Shown here one piece after another: positions 7,851-60,796 of a stretch of DNA of 64,000 nt. Source of the DNA: Bacteroidales bacterium. GTDB taxonomy: Bacteria; Bacteroidota; Bacteroidia; Bacteroidales; UBA3663. The notes beneath the pieces are model-generated. The model saw only the letters and a program-made list of their open reading frames with translations. It was not told where the DNA came from and searched no databases. Position numbers and translations under genes: made by a program. The first letter of the stretch is position 1. Each line of letters begins with the position of its first letter. The stretch is taken from assembly GCA_017618715.1 (NCBI GenBank), contig JAFZTS010000067.1:1-64000 (forward strand), written 5' to 3'.

Positions 7851-7971
7851 ATATATATATTTTAATAATGAATAATTGACAAAAGAACTAAATAATATTT
7901 CAATTAACAATGAAAAACCAAAAAAAGAAAATTAACAATTGGAATTAACAATTGCCATTGGTTTTCGGGTG

Positions 7972-18954: not shown

Positions 18955-18995
18955 GGTCAAATTACAATTAACAAATAACAATTAATTGAGGAGGG

Positions 18996-39434: not shown

Positions 39435-42206
39435 ATGAAAACGAAACTTTCAACCCTCTTCACATTTTTCACACTCTTCTTCCTTTCCTCCGAGATGGGT
39501 TTAGCCCAGGAATGGCCTGTCGTAAAGCAAGAGGCCAAGCCGGGTACTCGTTGGTGGTGGATGGGCAGTGCTGTCGATAGCGCCAACTTGACCTATAATC
39601 TGGAGACTTACGCCAAAGCTGGCATCGGTGCCGTCGAAATCACTCCCATCTATGGAGTAAAGGAAAATGAGAAGAACGATATCGATTTCTTGTCGCCACG
39701 ATGGATGAGGATGCTGGGCCACGTCGAGAACGAAGGTAAGCGTCTGGGCATCGAAATCGACATGAACACGGGTACCGGCTGGCCTTTTGGCGGTCCCGAA
39801 GTAAGTGTGGAAGAAGCTGCTACGCGTGTCTATTTCACTACGTGGCATGCAGGTGATGTTATGCCGGAACTGACGGAAAAGGAGAAGAAGAACTTCCCCA
39901 AGTTGCAGAAGGTTTATGCCTATCTCAACCTGAACGAGATACTCGAGATGGAGGCTCAGGCTGCCGAAATCAAAAAGAAGGATAAACGTCAGGAATTCCT
40001 CGACAATTACAAGTTCGATACCCTTTATGTGGGCTATTATATTGCCAAAACCCGTCAGCAGGTAAAGCGTGCAGCGCCAGGCGGTGAAGGTTATGTGTTG
40101 GATCACTTCAACCCCACAGCCGTGCAGAATTACTTCAAGCGTTTCGACAAGGCTTTTGCTGCAAGCGGAGTGCCGTATCCCCACACTTTCTTCAATGATA
40201 GTTACGAGGTTTATGAGGCCGATTGGACTCCTGCCATGCTTGAGGAGTTCAAGGCGCGTCGTGGATATGCCTTGGAAGAATACTTCCCGGTGTTTATGGA
40301 TGCGAACTACAATGATTCGAAATACTTCTCGATCAACTATCGCACCTATCCACAAACCAAGGCTGTCCGGTTCAGGACGCACGAAGATGTCGTTGCCGAT
40401 TATCGCCAGACCTTGAGCGACCTGCTGCAGAAGATGTTTACCAACCCTTGGGTCAAGTGGGCTCATAAGCATGAGGCCAAGGTGCGCAATCAGGCACATG
40501 GCAGTCCTGCCAACTTGCTCGACATTTATGCAGCTGTGGATATTCCCGAGATCGAGAGCTTCGGTCTGTCGGACTTCGGCATCGAGGGCTTGCGTTCCGA
40601 TACGCTTACCCGAAAGAACGATTCCGACCTTTCTATGCTGAAGTATCCGGCTTCGGTGGCTCATTTCTATGGCAAGGAGTTTGTTTCGGCCGAGACATTC
40701 ACTTGGCTTACCGAACATTTCCGTACGTCGCTTAGCCAGTGCAAACCCGACTTCGATCTGATGATGGTGGCAGGTGTCAACCATTGCTACTTCCACGGCA
40801 CGACCTATTCGCCACGCGAAGCACCATGGCCCGGCTATTTGTTCTATGCTTCGATGGAGATGTCTCCCATCAATACGATTTGGCAGGATGCGCCAGCGTT
40901 TTTCGAGTATATCACCCGCGTACAGTCGTGGATGCAGTATGGCCAGCCCGACAACGACCTGCTCGTTTATTTGCCATTCAACGACATTATCCACGAATAC
41001 CCGGGTCGTCTCCTGCAGTTTGACATTCACTCGATGGCGAAGAAGGCTCCAAGATTCATTCATGCCGTCAACTCCATCTACAATGCAGGTTATGACATGG
41101 ATTATTGTTCCGACCGCATGATCCTCGACATCACGGGTGTCGATAACGATGGCTATATCATTGCTCCCAGTGGTGTTCGCTACAAGGCGTTGGTTCTGCC
41201 CGAAGTGAAGATGCTTCCCGATAATGTCAGGGCACGCTTGGAGAAATGGAAGGTGTTTGGAGCAACCATTATTGAAGTCGATAATCCCGATGATTATGTG
41301 TCGGCATTGAAGCAGTTCCCGAAGATTGTGCCTGAGGATATGACAGCTCTTCACGGACTCAAGTTCATCCGTCGCCATAATATTACGGGATATCATTACT
41401 TCATCACCAGCTTGCAGGACAAGGGTGTCGATGGATGGGTTGGCCTTGCTACAGAGGCGCATAAGGCATATCTCTTCAACCCGTTGACAGGCGCAGTTCA
41501 GGAGACACCCGTGCGTCAGCAGGATGGACGCTCCGAGGTTTATCTTCGTTTGGAAAGTGGTGAGAGCTGCATCCTTCAGACCATCGTTTCCGATCGTCAG
41601 ATCACGGCATTCCAAGGCCAGCACCTCGTAGCTTCTACACCTCAAACCCTGGTAACCTCAAAGCTCACGGCCTCACCTCGTCAGTATATGACTCCCATCG
41701 ACCTGACAGGCAACACTTGGACACTTAAGCCAAAGAATTTCGAGACATGGGGAAAGCTGGGCAATGAGACCATCCGTGGACTCAAGCCTTGGACGGCTCT
41801 CGGCAAGCTTTGGGAGACAGGCAAGGGAACCGTGCGTTATTCGACTACGGTCAACGTGTCGGCAGGGTCTATCAGCGGTTCCAAGGACGTGCTCTTGGAT
41901 CTTGGCGACGTGCGCGAAAGTGCACATGTCTATATCAACGGACGCGATGCGGGTGTGGCATTCTGCGCTCCGTTCCGGCTGAGTGTGGGCAAGTATCTGC
42001 ATGCCGGCAGCAATACCATCGACATCGACGTGACAGGCCTTGCGGCCAACTATGTTGCCGAGATGGATAGGCAGGGTTATGTGTGGCGCATCTTCAAGAA
42101 TGCCAATATTGCCAATCTCAAGGGAGGAGCTGTGAGCTACTACGGCGATTGGGATGTCATGCCCGGTGGCCTGAATTCTACAGTCAAGCTGATTCCCGTC
42201 AAATAA
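39435..42206 (+). CDS. GH106-like alpha-L-rhamnosidase
   Basis: The 923-residue secreted protein (signal peptide to about GLAQEW) opens with KPGTRWWWMGSAVDSANLTY and IEIDMNTGTGWPFGGPEVS. Both are typical of the large GH106 family, which shares a central catalytic barrel and a C-terminal carbohydrate-binding beta-sandwich (here AHVYINGRDAGVAFCAPFRL). GH106 removes alpha-L-rhamnose from rhamnogalacturonans. With GH28 and GH105 it fits stepwise breakdown of rhamnogalacturonan I. It is the last gene before mnmA, 28 bases away. Confidence 0.85.
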   Translation: MKTKLSTLFTFFTLFFLSSEMGLAQEWPVVKQEAKPGTRWWWMGSAVDSANLTYNLETYAKAGIGAVEITPIYGVKENEKNDIDFLSPRWMRMLGHVENEGKRLGIEIDMNTGTGWPFGGPEVSVEEAATRVYFTTWHAGDVMPELTEKEKKNFPKLQKVYAYLNLNEILEMEAQAAEIKKKDKRQEFLDNYKFDTLYVGYYIAKTRQQVKRAAPGGEGYVLDHFNPTAVQNYFKRFDKAFAASGVPYPHTFFNDSYEVYEADWTPAMLEEFKARRGYALEEYFPVFMDANYNDSKYFSINYRTYPQTKAVRFRTHEDVVADYRQTLSDLLQKMFTNPWVKWAHKHEAKVRNQAHGSPANLLDIYAAVDIPEIESFGLSDFGIEGLRSDTLTRKNDSDLSMLKYPASVAHFYGKEFVSAETFTWLTEHFRTSLSQCKPDFDLMMVAGVNHCYFHGTTYSPREAPWPGYLFYASMEMSPINTIWQDAPAFFEYITRVQSWMQYGQPDNDLLVYLPFNDIIHEYPGRLLQFDIHSMAKKAPRFIHAVNSIYNAGYDMDYCSDRMILDITGVDNDGYIIAPSGVRYKALVLPEVKMLPDNVRARLEKWKVFGATIIEVDNPDDYVSALKQFPKIVPEDMTALHGLKFIRRHNITGYHYFITSLQDKGVDGWVGLATEAHKAYLFNPLTGAVQETPVRQQDGRSEVYLRLESGESCILQTIVSDRQITAFQGQHLVASTPQTLVTSKLTASPRQYMTPIDLTGNTWTLKPKNFETWGKLGNETIRGLKPWTALGKLWETGKGTVRYSTTVNVSAGSISGSKDVLLDLGDVRESAHVYINGRDAGVAFCAPFRLSVGKYLHAGSNTIDIDVTGLAANYVAEMDRQGYVWRIFKNANIANLKGGAVSYYGDWDVMPGGLNSTVKLIPVK

Positions 42207-42240
42207 TTGTTAACTTTTAATTGTTGATTGTTAATTGAAT
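42207..42240 (+). repeat. TTGTTAATTG-type repeat supplying the mnmA start
   Basis: The sequence between GH106 and mnmA consists of TTGTTAAC/TTAATTGTT units ending in TTAATTG. The final TAA-TTG is in frame with mnmA, so the repeat ends exactly at the TTG start codon. Sense orientation relative to mnmA. Confidence 0.7.
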
Positions 42241-43323
42241 ATTGCAGCCTTATTATCAGGTGGTGTCGATAGCAGTGTAGCTGTTCATCTGCTTTGCGAG
42301 CAGGGCCATCGTCCAGACCTCTTCTATATCAAGATTGGCATGGATGATGATGGCTATAGTTGTCCGCAGGAGGAAGACCTCGAAATCGTTCAGGCCATGG
42401 CACGTCGTTATGGCTTGAAGTATGACGTGGTGGATCTGCAGAAAGACTATTGGGACAACGTGGTGGCCTATACCATCGACAAGGTGAAGCGAGGCTTCAC
42501 ACCCAATCCTGATGTGATGTGCAATCGTCTCATCAAGTTCGGTGCCTTTGATCAACGGGTAGGACATCTTTACGACAAGACGGCAACAGGCCATTACGCC
42601 ACAGTGATTGAAGAGGATGGGTTATCGTGGCTTGGTACCACGCCCGATCCGGTGAAGGACCAAACTGACTTCTTGGCGCAGCTTACAGGCTTGCAGGTGG
42701 CGCACAGCCTTTTCCCCATCGGCAAGATGGCAAAGGGAGAGGTGCGACGCATCGCCGAAGAGGCTAAACTGCCCAGTGCCCATCGCAAGGATTCGCAGGG
42801 CATTTGTTTCCTCGGAAAGATTGACTATAACCAGTTCATCGAGCGTTTCTTGGGCAAGAAGGAGGGCCCGATTGTCGAGATTGAGACGGGCAAGGTGTTG
42901 GGTCATCATCAGGGATTCTGGTTCCACACCATCGGGCAGCGCAAGGGTCTCTACTTGAGTGGTGGCCCTTGGTTTGTTGTCAAGAAGGACATCGATGAGA
43001 ATATCATCTATGTGAGTCGTGGCTATCAGCCCGAGGCGCAGATGAAGGACGAACTCGTGATGCGCGATATGCATTGGATCACCCTGAATCCTTACGAAAC
43101 TCAAACTCCTGTCCTTCGTGTCACGAATGATGAGACGCCCATCCTCTTCAAGATTCGACATGTCGCTGAACTGCGTACAGGTCGTCTCTCACGTCGAGCC
43201 GATGACAGCTATTACCTCAAGATGGATGCCAAGACCAACGGCGTTGCCCCAGGTCAGTTCTGCGTCATATATACTCCCGATGGCCGTATCTGCCTTGGCT
43301 CGGGTGAGATTGCGTGGGAATAA
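42235..43323 (+). CDS. mnmA: tRNA 2-thiouridine(34) synthase MnmA
   Basis: The 362-residue protein has the PP-loop [15 protein letters not shown] at its N-terminus. The two catalytic cysteines lie in [15 protein letters not shown] and [12 protein letters not shown], and the C-terminal barrel includes [11 protein letters not shown]. It puts sulfur on U34 of Lys, Glu and Gln tRNAs. The start must be the TTG at 42235. The codon just before it is TAA, and the first in-frame ATG lies beyond the PP-loop. The TTG is the end of a TTGTTAATTG-type repeat. Confidence 0.92.
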
Positions 43324-44894: not shown

Positions 44895-44907
44895 GACCTT
44901 CCCAATT

Positions 44908-44947
44908 TAATTGTTAATTATTAATTATTAATTGTTAATTGATAATT
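44908..44947 (+). repeat. TTAATTGTTAATTA repeat supplying the ABC ATPase start
   Basis: A run of TTAATTG, TTAATTA and TTGTTAATTG units fills the gap after the DUF4836 gene. As at mnmA, the last TAA-TTG is in frame, and the TTG at 44939-44941 is the start codon of the next gene. Confidence 0.75.
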
Positions 44948-45598
44948 GAATTCACCCTCCATCAACTTCTGCCAAATGTCTTCGCTGACACTGGAATCGA
45001 AAAAGGGTCATCGGACGTTTGGCAGGTTGATTTGACCTTTCAACGTGGACAATCATATCTTGTCGAGGCCTCTTCTGGTCGCGGCAAGACTTCGTTGTGT
45101 ATGTTTCTCTATGGCTTGCGTACCGACTACAGCGGGGAGATTGCCGTCACCACCACTGAGGGTGCCACTTGCCGCTTGCTCGATATGAATCTTGATGAAC
45201 TGAGGCAGCGGAGCTTGGCTATGATGTTCCAGGATAACCGGCTTTTCCCCGAACTGACAGCCGTCGAGAATTGCCTGCTTAAGAACCGTCTGACCAATCA
45301 TCTGTCGGAACAGGAGATTCGTTCGAAGCTCATGCAGCTTGGGCTTGAAGCGAAGTTGGACGTGCCATGTGGTCTTTTGTCCTTAGGCCAACAGCAGCGT
45401 GTCGCTTTTGTGCGAATGCTTTGCCAACCTGCCGACTTCTATTTACTCGACGAACCCGTCAGCCATCTCGATGACGAGAATATCCGCTTGATGAGCGACA
45501 TGCTTCAGCAGGCACAATCTGCGACTGGCGCAGGGGTGATTCTGACCTCTATCGGTCGCGAGCTTCCATACCATTACGACCACGTATTGAAGCTTTAA
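44939..45598 (+). CDS. ABC transporter ATP-binding protein with variant Walker A
   Basis: The 219-residue ATPase has Walker A EASSGRGKTSL (the first Gly of GxxGxGK replaced by Ala-Ser), a Q-loop in AMMFQDNRLFPEL, a signature LSLGQQQRVAFVRML (LSLGQ instead of LSGGQ) and Walker B FYLLDEPVSHLDDEN. These changes are mild and it is probably active. It is paired with the FtsX-like permease downstream. The start is TTG at 44939, preceded directly by an in-frame TAA; the next Met lies after Walker A. Substrate unknown. Confidence 0.82.
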   Translation: MIIEFTLHQLLPNVFADTGIEKGSSDVWQVDLTFQRGQSYLVEASSGRGKTSLCMFLYGLRTDYSGEIAVTTTEGATCRLLDMNLDELRQRSLAMMFQDNRLFPELTAVENCLLKNRLTNHLSEQEIRSKLMQLGLEAKLDVPCGLLSLGQQQRVAFVRMLCQPADFYLLDEPVSHLDDENIRLMSDMLQQAQSATGAGVILTSIGRELPYHYDHVLKL

Positions 45599-51097: not shown

Positions 51098-51250
51098 AAG
51101 GGACATTAAGGGTAGTAAAAGGGTTAATAAAAGGTAGTAAAAGGGACGATTGTTTTCCTTGTCCTTCCAATATTACTCCTTTTCCCTTCCTCCCCTCACT
51201 GATAGTAATGTCCCTTTTACTCCCCTTTTACTCCCTTTTAACTCCCCTTC
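51098..51250. repeat. Imperfect inverted repeat of purine-rich units
   Basis: The left arm (about 51098-51147) is built of GTAAAAGGG/GTTAATAAAAGG units. The right arm (about 51205-51250) is built of CCCTTTTACT units, the reverse complement with gaps. The pair could fold into a long hairpin in RNA from either strand. It lies between the export gene and ychF. Confidence 0.55.
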
Positions 51251-51268
51251 AACTCCCTATAATAAACT

Positions 51269-56430: not shown

Positions 56431-56438
56431 TCACATCG

Positions 56439-56731
56439 GTCCAATTCACGATCGTAAATTGGACATTTCCAATCGTGAGCGTCCAATTCTGAATCGTAAA
56501 TTGGACCCGTCCAATCGTATCGGTCCAATTCTCTAACGTAAATTGGACCCGTCCAATCGCGTCAGTCCAATTCTCGAACGTAAATTGGACCCATCCAATC
56601 GTGTCGGTCCAATTCACAATCGTAAATTGGACCCGTCCAATCGCATCGGTCCAATTCCCGAACGTAAATTGGACCCATCCAATCGCGTCGGTCCAATTCA
56701 CTAACGTAAATTGGACCGATACGATTTTTGC
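56439..56731. repeat. Seven-copy 42-bp palindromic tandem repeat
   Basis: Units begin at 56439, 56481, 56523, 56565, 56607, 56649 and 56691, exactly 42 bases apart. Each contains GTCCAATT, a 10-base partly variable loop and AATTGGAC, so it can form a hairpin. A third half-site (G/A)TCCAATCG follows. The variable bases sit mainly in the loop and at two positions near the unit end. Because 42 is a multiple of three, the minus strand reads a 14-residue repeat of the form VQFTxxNWTD(A/T)IG(R/W) through all seven copies. The plus strand reads a similar peptide but has a stop in the second copy. The array fills the gap between two convergent genes. Confidence 0.92.
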
Positions 56732-58466: not shown

Positions 58467-59174
58467 TTATTCGGTCTTCTTTGGCTCCACATTACCGCCC
58501 CATGAGGTGATGTCGCAAAGCTCGATGCGGAAGAAGAGATTGGAATAAGGATTGATGTTCGAACCACTGCCGCTTTGGCCGTAAGCCAGGAACCAGGGAA
58601 TCATGCAGACAACGTGATCGCCGATATACATCTGCTGCAGGATGTCGCCCCAGCCGGTGATGACAGCGTTTGGCGTGAAGCCCGAGTAGTACATTACTTG
58701 ATAGGACTCGATGGTATCAGCCTTCAGCGGGCTGTCTTCGGCAGCAGCGAAGAACAATGAGTCGAGGATGCCACCGGGATTGCGCAGATACTCCTTTGAC
58801 CAGCCGCCCTGACGCTTGACCGTAGCAAAGAGCGAATCGGTCTGGAAAAGCGTATAATGGACGCTGAGCGTGCTCGTTGAGTAGGGACGGTAGTCCTTGC
58901 GTGGATTGAGGTTGCGCAGGCTGTCGATGTTGGCGTGCTTCACGTAGTGAACGAAGCTGGGATAGTACTGCGGCTCCTTGAGCGACTGCACCGCATGGTT
59001 GAAGTAGGTGAGGGCCGAGTCACTGCTTTGCGCCGAAGCGAACAACTCGGTAACTGCGTTGTTCTCGTCGCGCCAACCGTAATACTCGGTGTAATCTACA
59101 TCGTCATCGTCGTTGCAGGCCAGCATCAGCGGCATCGCCACTACAGCGAGCAGTAAATATAGTATCTTTTTCAA
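58467..59174 (-). CDS. FKBP-like peptidyl-prolyl isomerase lipoprotein
   Basis: The 235-residue protein has a lipobox (LMLAC, Cys20) followed by a run of Asp. The C-terminal half has the FKBP pattern: AVITGWGDILQQMYIGDHVV, CMIPWFLAYGQSG, and YSNLFFRIELCDI. The start is TTG at 59174, fixed by the in-frame TAA immediately upstream and by the need for a lipoprotein signal (the next Met is only six residues from the Cys). The TTG belongs to a TTAATTG repeat. The gene sits between glyS and the C69 dipeptidase, all on the minus strand. Confidence 0.78.
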   Translation of the reverse strand: MKKILYLLLAVVAMPLMLACNDDDDVDYTEYYGWRDENNAVTELFASAQSSDSALTYFNHAVQSLKEPQYYPSFVHYVKHANIDSLRNLNPRKDYRPYSTSTLSVHYTLFQTDSLFATVKRQGGWSKEYLRNPGGILDSLFFAAAEDSPLKADTIESYQVMYYSGFTPNAVITGWGDILQQMYIGDHVVCMIPWFLAYGQSGSGSNINPYSNLFFRIELCDITSWGGNVEPKKTE

Positions 59175-59205
59175 TTAACAATTAACAATTAACAGTTAAC
59201 AATGC
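59172..59205 (-). repeat. GTTAATTG repeat supplying the FKBP start
   Basis: On the minus strand GTTAACTGTTAATTGTTAATTG-type units run from the glyS stop to the FKBP start. The last TTAATTG supplies TAA-TTG in frame, the TTG being the start codon. Confidence 0.75.
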
Positions 59206-59206
59206 C

Positions 59207-60754
59207 TTAGTCGTTCTCAATCTTACGAAGCAAAGAAGAGATGTTCACCGAGTCACCGATGATCTTGTGGAGGTCGGCGATAGCTACGCGCTCCTGCTCC
59301 ATAGTGTCGCGGAAGCGGAGGGTAACGGTGTTGTCCTCGAGGGTCTGTCCGTCAACAGTAACGCAATAGGGCGTGCCGATGGCGTCCTGACGACGATAGC
59401 GCTTGCCGATGGAATCCTTCACTTCGATCTGGCAGGTGTAGTCGTAACGAAGCTCGCGGAGGATCTCCTCGGCCTTCTCCGGCAGACCGTCCTTGTTGAC
59501 GAGTGGCAGGATGGCCACCTTGACAGGAGCCAATGCGGGTGGCAAGGCAAGAACTACGCGACGCTCGCCATTGACCTCCTCCTCACGATAGGCACCGGCC
59601 ATGATGCTGAGGAACATGCGATCGACACCGATAGAGGTCTCGATGACGTAGGGAACGAATGACTCGCGGGTCTCGGGGTCGAAGTACTCGATCTTCTTGC
59701 CGCTGTACTTGGCGTGCTGCGAGAGGTCGAAGTTCGTGCGGGAATGGATACCCTCCACCTCCTTGAAGCCGAATGGCATGTTGAACTCGATATCGGTGGC
59801 AGCATTGGCGTAGTGAGCCAGCTTCTCGTGATCGTGGTAGCGATACATGGCATCACCGAAGCCGAGAGCCTTGTGCCAGGCAAGACGGGTCTTCTTCCAC
59901 TTGGCAAACCAATCAAGCTCGGTGCCGGGCTTGATGAAGAACTGCATCTCCATCTGCTCGAACTCGCGCATACGGAAGATGAACTGGCGTGCTACGATCT
60001 CGTTGCGGAAAGCCTTGCCGATCTGGGCAATGCCGAAAGGCAGCTTCATGCGGCCCGACTTCTGTACGTTGAGGTAATTGACGAAGATACCCTGTGCGGT
60101 CTCTGGACGAAGATAGATCTTCATGGCACCGTCAGCTGTGGAACCCATCTCGGTGGAGAACATGAGGTTGAACTGACGCACGTCGGTCCAGTTGCGGGTG
60201 CCGCTGATGGGGCAGACGATCTCCTCGTCGAGGATAATCTGCTTCAGTTCCTCGAGGTCCATCTTGTTCATGGCATCGCTATAGCGCTGATGCAGGGCAT
60301 CCCACTTGGCCTGATGTTCAAGTACACGGCCATTGGTGGCACGGAACTGAGCCTCGTCGAAAGCCTCGCCGAAACGCTTGCGGGCCTTCTCGACCTCCTT
60401 GTTGATCTTGTCCTCAATCTTGGCAAGCTGTTCCTCGATGAGCACATCGGCACGATAGCGCTTCTTGGAGTCGCGGTTGTCGATAAGCGGGTCATTGAAT
60501 GCATCGACGTGGCCCGAAGCCTTCCAGACTGTCGGGTGCATGAAGATGGCGGCATCGATGCCCACGATGTTCTCGTGGAGCTTGGTCATAGCCTCCCACC
60601 AGTAGCGCTTGATATTGTTCTTGAGTTCGACGCCGTTCTGTCCGTAGTCATAGACTGCGCCCAGTCCGTCATAGATTTCACTCGAAGGGAAAACGAAGCC
60701 ATACTCCTTGCAGTGGGACACCAGCTTCTTGAAAACATCTTCCTGATTTGCCAT
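59207..60754 (-). CDS. glyS: Glycine-tRNA ligase, single-chain type GlyS
   Basis: The 515-residue protein is the alpha2-type class II synthetase, not the GlyQ/GlyS pair of E. coli. Visible motifs include motif 2 RQFIFRMREFEQMEMQFF, YLRPETAQGIFVNYLNV and motif 3 SIGVDRMFLSIM. The C-terminal anticodon-binding domain has PLVNKDGLPEKAEEILREL. It charges tRNA-Gly. A candidate -7 element TAACTTTG (60827-60834) lies upstream, and a TTGTTAATTG-type repeat sits in its leader (60765-60796). Confidence 0.95.
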   Translation of the reverse strand: MANQEDVFKKLVSHCKEYGFVFPSSEIYDGLGAVYDYGQNGVELKNNIKRYWWEAMTKLHENIVGIDAAIFMHPTVWKASGHVDAFNDPLIDNRDSKKRYRADVLIEEQLAKIEDKINKEVEKARKRFGEAFDEAQFRATNGRVLEHQAKWDALHQRYSDAMNKMDLEELKQIILDEEIVCPISGTRNWTDVRQFNLMFSTEMGSTADGAMKIYLRPETAQGIFVNYLNVQKSGRMKLPFGIAQIGKAFRNEIVARQFIFRMREFEQMEMQFFIKPGTELDWFAKWKKTRLAWHKALGFGDAMYRYHDHEKLAHYANAATDIEFNMPFGFKEVEGIHSRTNFDLSQHAKYSGKKIEYFDPETRESFVPYVIETSIGVDRMFLSIMAGAYREEEVNGERRVVLALPPALAPVKVAILPLVNKDGLPEKAEEILRELRYDYTCQIEVKDSIGKRYRRQDAIGTPYCVTVDGQTLEDNTVTLRFRDTMEQERVAIADLHKIIGDSVNISSLLRKIEND

Positions 60755-60764
60755 ATTTTATTGA

Positions 60765-60796
60765 ATTAATAATTAACAATTAACAAATAACAATTG
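60765..60796 (-). repeat. TTGTTAATTG-type repeat in the glyS leader
   Basis: On the minus strand the leader reads CAATTGTTATTTGTTAATTG and TTAATTATTAATTC units in the sense of glyS, ending 11 bases before its ATG. Confidence 0.6.

Follow-up and report, generated by a model that had tools for sequence, protein, structure and literature searches.

Direct repeats of the heptamer TAACTGA have been described in marine Beggiatoaceae, some Cyanobacteria and five Bacteroidetes (MacGregor 2015, PMC4679880). In the literature on Prevotella and Bacteroidetes, this was the only close match found to the repeat described here, TTAATTG, whose tandem arrays hold the TTG starts of three genes in a 64,000-nucleotide stretch, hereafter the window, of a Bacteroidales bacterium (assembly GCA_017618715.1, contig JAFZTS010000067.1). 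We consider that TTAATTG is probably the unit of an intergenic heptamer repeat that has spread in a ruminant-gut lineage and now provides the start codon of some genes. The two repeats have much in common: both form intergenic, AT-rich arrays of few units, mostly directed forward toward a start a few nucleotides away, some of which overlap the end of the upstream gene; both are patchy across lineages and precede diverse genes, and most of the leaders that carry them are devoid of a Shine-Dalgarno (SD) motif. Indeed, the genome of the window, G000, contains 59 such few-unit arrays, and those before starts are mostly forward (22:1). The unit itself is not TAACTGA, and its coding properties differ: a TAACTGA array contains no ATG, GTG or TTG, whereas in a TTAATTG array a TTG stands right after a TAA in every frame. 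TTAATTG arrays are also distinguished by start-codon replacement between orthologues and by a second common position, antisense at the stop side.

Slippage has been proposed as the origin of long simple sequence repeats with heptanucleotide units (Mrazek 2007, as summarised in PMC4679880), which resemble the present arrays in unit length and in this presumed origin; the summary does not describe repeats serving as start codons. Intergenic heptamer arrays beside starts are thus of a known kind, and what appears to be new, judging from sequence comparison, is the start codon located inside the unit and the exchange of ATG and TTG between orthologues.

TTG starts inside TTAATTG arrays

A preliminary description of the window had located three TTG starts inside a TTAATTG repeat, and all three are found there:

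42204..42237, plus strand: TTAATTG-type array of about 4.9 units, occupying the space from a glycoside hydrolase gene to mnmA
42235..43323, plus strand: mnmA (tRNA 2-thiouridylase), TTG start 42235 (Pfam, orthologue comparison)
44907..44948, plus strand: TTAATTG array of 6 units
44939..45598, plus strand: ABC ATPase, TTG start 44939 inside the array (Pfam, orthologue comparison)
59172..59203, minus strand: one TTAACTG and three TTAATTG units, identical in the sister genomes G006 and G010
58467..59174, minus strand: FKBP-type lipoprotein, TTG start 59174 (Pfam, orthologue comparison)

In the mnmA array, the first TAA is the stop codon of the upstream glycoside hydrolase gene and the last TTG is the start of mnmA, where the sequence reads TAATTGTTAACTTTTAATTGTTGATTGTTAA, then TTG AAT ATT GCA. 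As had been stated, mnmA has no alternative start preserving its essential N-terminus: the next in-frame ATG, GTG or TTG lies 105 nt downstream of the TTG, past the SGGVDSS motif. Pfam matches begin at residue 1 for mnmA (tRNA_Me_trans) and at residue 29 for the ABC ATPase (ABC_tran); the lipoprotein matches FKBP_C, and its N-terminus is a lipoprotein signal. The TAA noted immediately before the TTG is present in all three genes, but it does not represent three coincidences. TAA-TTG appears once per 21 nt in every reading frame of a TTAATTG array and, since it recurs in all three frames, it is a single property of the unit; 1.5% of heptamers similarly have a stop that is immediately followed by a start.

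The arrays are not due to chance. The window contains 6 arrays of at least 3 units (at most 2 mismatches) compared with 0 in 60 order-1 Markov sequences, and TTGTTAATTG with at most one mismatch was observed 21 times against 3.2 expected. Among exact heptamer doublets, the TTAATTG class is the commonest both in the window and in four of the five syntenic stretches from the sister genomes (G003, G005, G006, G010 and G013). Since TTAATTG read backwards is a rotation of itself, a reversed-sequence control was unusable, and tandem counts of all heptamers and Markov sequences were used in its place.

Start codons of the orthologous genes

G000 is a draft assembly of 3.0 Mb in 87 contigs. Its close relatives are metagenome assemblies from the ruminant gut that bear the label Bacteroidales or Prevotellaceae. 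The mnmA gene has TTG and an array in G000 and G003, and ATG with an unrelated leader in G005, G006, G010 and G013; more distant orthologues also start with ATG. The FKBP gene has TTG and an array in G000, G006 and G010, and ATG in G003, G005 and G013, one of these ATG-type genomes being 93.8% identical in DNA around the gene. In both genes, the ATG of the orthologues falls at exactly the same codon as the TTG. This match is the strongest argument for the TTG codons being starts, and it supports the earlier proposal that a repeat family may have supplied start codons. For the ABC ATPase, G003 also carries TTG and an array, and the start is ATG in a G011 homologue of 47% identity; this start assignment thus rests on fewer relatives than those of mnmA and FKBP.

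Five more genes have a TTG start in an array, namely rseP, queE, pssA and one lipoprotein gene each in G000 and G003. When one fixed criterion was applied to the sister genomes, TTG-only genes amounted to 6/30 beside arrays vs 2/149 elsewhere (p = 3e-4). Furthermore, when mnmA, the ABC ATPase, FKBP, rseP, queE and pssA were compared in the six sister genomes, all 17 cells with an array had TTG, and the 13 array-less cells comprised 10 ATG and 3 TTG (p = 1e-5). The latter comparison is descriptive only, because the genes were picked for having a TTG and array case, two array cells are degenerate and the species are related.

Distribution and polarity of the arrays

Three further arrays of the window precede genes with a usable ATG:

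60764..60795, minus strand: array in the leader of a class II aminoacyl-tRNA synthetase gene (59207-60754, ATG start)
18958..18985, minus strand: array before a DUF3109 gene, with a usable ATG 10 nt past the array
7901..7914, minus strand: short array before an OEP-family efflux gene, which probably starts at an ATG 50 nt past the array

The TTG codons at 7910 (OEP) and 18981 (DUF3109) were rejected as further starts, the ATG being better in each case, and so was TTG 43332 of a DUF4836 gene, where ATG 43369 is better and begins a lipoprotein.

Genome-wide counts were drawn from sequence stretches and pattern searches. Two TTAATTG units with at most one mismatch are matched 105 times in G000, and these matches collapse to the 59 distinct arrays in the loci analysed, with 2-6 units each. 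Arrays are abundant in 6 of 15 genomes of the genus and present in 71 of 393 genomes and 54 of 206 genera sampled across the order. A long pure array of 12 units was seen in G291 (contig 138:4213-4296), and a run of array matches spaced by exactly 49 nt in G142 (contig 100:16118-16334).

The orientation of the arrays follows the gene boundaries. In G000, sense arrays outnumber antisense ones 22 to 1 within 10 nt of a start, and antisense arrays outnumber sense ones 12 to 2 among those beside stops and not near a following start; pooled over all sampled genomes, which gives non-independent counts, the corresponding ratios are 54 sense to 2 and 32 antisense to 5. Of 42 antisense arrays, 17 contain the stop codon. 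At starts and stops alike, it is the TTG end of the array that points toward the coding sequence. In other families of the order (L385-L414; 1-2 arrays per genome), the arrays are mostly antisense at the stop side; no start-side TTG case was seen there, in a sample that is too small and with gene calls that are crude.

The (UUAAUUG)n leaders are the exact complement of the (CAAUUAA)n sequences beside stop codons in 3' untranslated regions. They could pair in trans with those of other genes and repress translation by masking the UUG or AUG; selection for such pairing would account for the TTG end facing the gene at both boundaries. Duplexes of actual leaders with 3' regions are predicted at -21 to -36 kcal/mol, compared with about -7 to -9 for shuffled partners. 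Strong predicted duplexes are, however, to be expected for any complementary repeats and are no evidence of function, and we regard such a network as highly doubtful.

Replacement of leaders

In the syntenic spacers of the six genomes, the whole segment from stop to start is exchanged. The mnmA leader is either a heptamer array or of the TTCGAACCC type, and that of FKBP is either a heptamer array or contains CCCGAATTATCGAA...TTCGATAATTCG; several of the more distant genomes of the genus lack a spacer, the FKBP start being located at or overlapping the upstream stop (ATGACTAA-type). On the sister-genome tree, ((G000,(G005,G006)),(G003,(G010,G013))), a Fitch count gives at least three changes of state for FKBP and two for mnmA. 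Recombination moving leader and coding sequence together was considered and is not supported, as the coding sequence beside the start groups by species and not by leader type. The array in the synthetase leader can be recognised at one and the same position throughout the six sister genomes, and it has accumulated substitutions between species.

The ATG-type FKBP leader of G003, G005 and G013 (L262, L260, L264) has inverted ends, ATCCCGAATTATCGAA / TTCGATAATTCG-GAT, and is possibly a hairpin or a small inserted element. Those heptamer arrays that were inspected consist of direct repeats and take up the spacer, and in a few spacers there is also a unit that runs the other way; the comparison with miniature inverted-repeat elements covered these inspected arrays only, without a systematic search for terminal inverted repeats.

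Origin of the TTG starts

We propose that heptamer arrays, which may spread by slippage or by copying between arrays and would be nearly neutral, occupy and replace short gaps between co-directional genes. Since any frame of a multi-unit array has a TAA and then a TTG, an array reaching or overwriting the native ATG would still stop upstream translation and supply an in-frame start. The unit at the array end would have become the start codon of mnmA, the ABC ATPase, the FKBP lipoprotein and a few other genes, the gain of the array being the likely cause of ATG loss. Ribosomes would then initiate at the array TTG by the SD-independent route of Bacteroidota, without a dedicated repeat signal. 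Sister species would thereby offer a concrete case of a spreading tandem repeat that takes the place of both leader and start codon in conserved genes, which bears on start-codon turnover where SD sites are unused. Gene callers may misplace starts in array-bearing genomes, and the polarity at starts and stops provides a clear, testable regularity.

Initiation in Bacteroidetes is known to be SD-independent and Kozak-like (PMC6847099), and G000 similarly shows few SD motifs and an enrichment of A at -3. AGGAG-like motifs 4-15 nt before the start are found in 6-9% of the ordinary genes sampled and in no array, and A occupies -3 in 59-64% of ordinary ATG genes. The array-borne TTG differs in having the non-preferred T at -3, the rarest base there among the ATG genes of G000 (4%). 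Since SD motifs are scarce anyway and the array places T where A is preferred, the missing SD is normal here and the array brings no favoured context; the preliminary suggestion that the repeat may act as a start signal in place of an SD site is not supported.

Several observations weigh against the spreading-repeat origin proposed above. All six genomes are metagenome assemblies, and in G000 a usable ATG follows closely after most start-side arrays. The TTG enrichment seen in the sister genomes is not significant in G000 (2/28 vs 4/97), where the caller classed mnmA among the array-free genes and overlooked the ABC and FKBP cases. The FKBP arrays of G000, G006 and G010 share the same unit number and the same variant TTAACTG unit, and for these three species to share it, the array would have to be gained repeatedly, lost repeatedly or exchanged. 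Nor does neutral spreading predict so strong a polarity; coding boundaries are invisible to a mutational process, which may point to selection or to sequence-specific seeding. Finally, TTG starts also arise in other ways: the array-less rseP of G003 and G013 keeps TTG, and queE likewise has TTG in G013, G012 and G002, where a clear array is lacking. An ancestral TTG with no repeat, which had been named as grounds for rejecting the repeat as a source of starts, applies in part to rseP and queE but not to mnmA and FKBP.

A functional role of the array as an initiation or regulatory leader, with (UUAAUUG)n recognised by ribosomes or an RNA-binding protein and kept by selection in sense next to starts, would agree with the start-side polarity, with the FKBP leader array identical in three species and the synthetase array kept in all six, and with the similar role proposed for TAACTGA arrays (PMC4679880). 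It seems rather unlikely, though, given that orthologues lose the array and use unrelated leaders, that the array imposes the least used base at -3, that the synthetase array gathered substitutions between species and that the mostly antisense stop-side arrays would be left unexplained. The rseP and queE starts without arrays could instead indicate that TTG starts are ordinary and old, the arrays standing beside them by chance. This is improbable, considering that TTG-only genes are concentrated beside arrays in the sister genomes and that array-less orthologues of mnmA and FKBP, like more distant mnmA genes, have ATG at the corresponding codon; for these two genes, the start-codon and spacer comparisons already contradict it. 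Seven-base tandem units can slip, and seven is not a multiple of three, so changes in unit number might switch genes on and off, as in phase-variable contingency loci. Such switching is hardly credible here: the start is the last unit in mnmA and FKBP, and therefore the unit number leaves their frame unchanged; the FKBP array has an equal unit number in three species, and the affected genes include the housekeeping mnmA, rseP and queE. The comparison was made between species, and no difference in unit number altering frame or expression emerged from it.

Other repeats

A nonamer family, TTCGAACCC, is common in G000, G003, G005, G006, G010 and G013 and nearly absent (one match) in the rest of the genus. 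It also fills leaders (e.g. L256, L258, L415-L454). This nonamer, whose unit holds no start codon, was not found less than 17 nt in sense before a start in the arrays checked, where gene calls are unreliable because the unit is open in frame; the observation counts in favour of the origin proposed above for the TTG starts. Repeats of other kinds were also noticed in the window. A 41-nt tandem repeat of about 6 copies with 89% matches stands at its edge (1-244), and 11-nt TCCCTTTTACT-type repeats lie in a spacer (51108-51258) whose orthologous spacers in sister genomes hold unrelated repeats. Between convergent genes, a 42-nt tandem repeat (GTCCAATTC..GTAAATTGGACC; 56435-56717) has a related, differently spaced version in G003.
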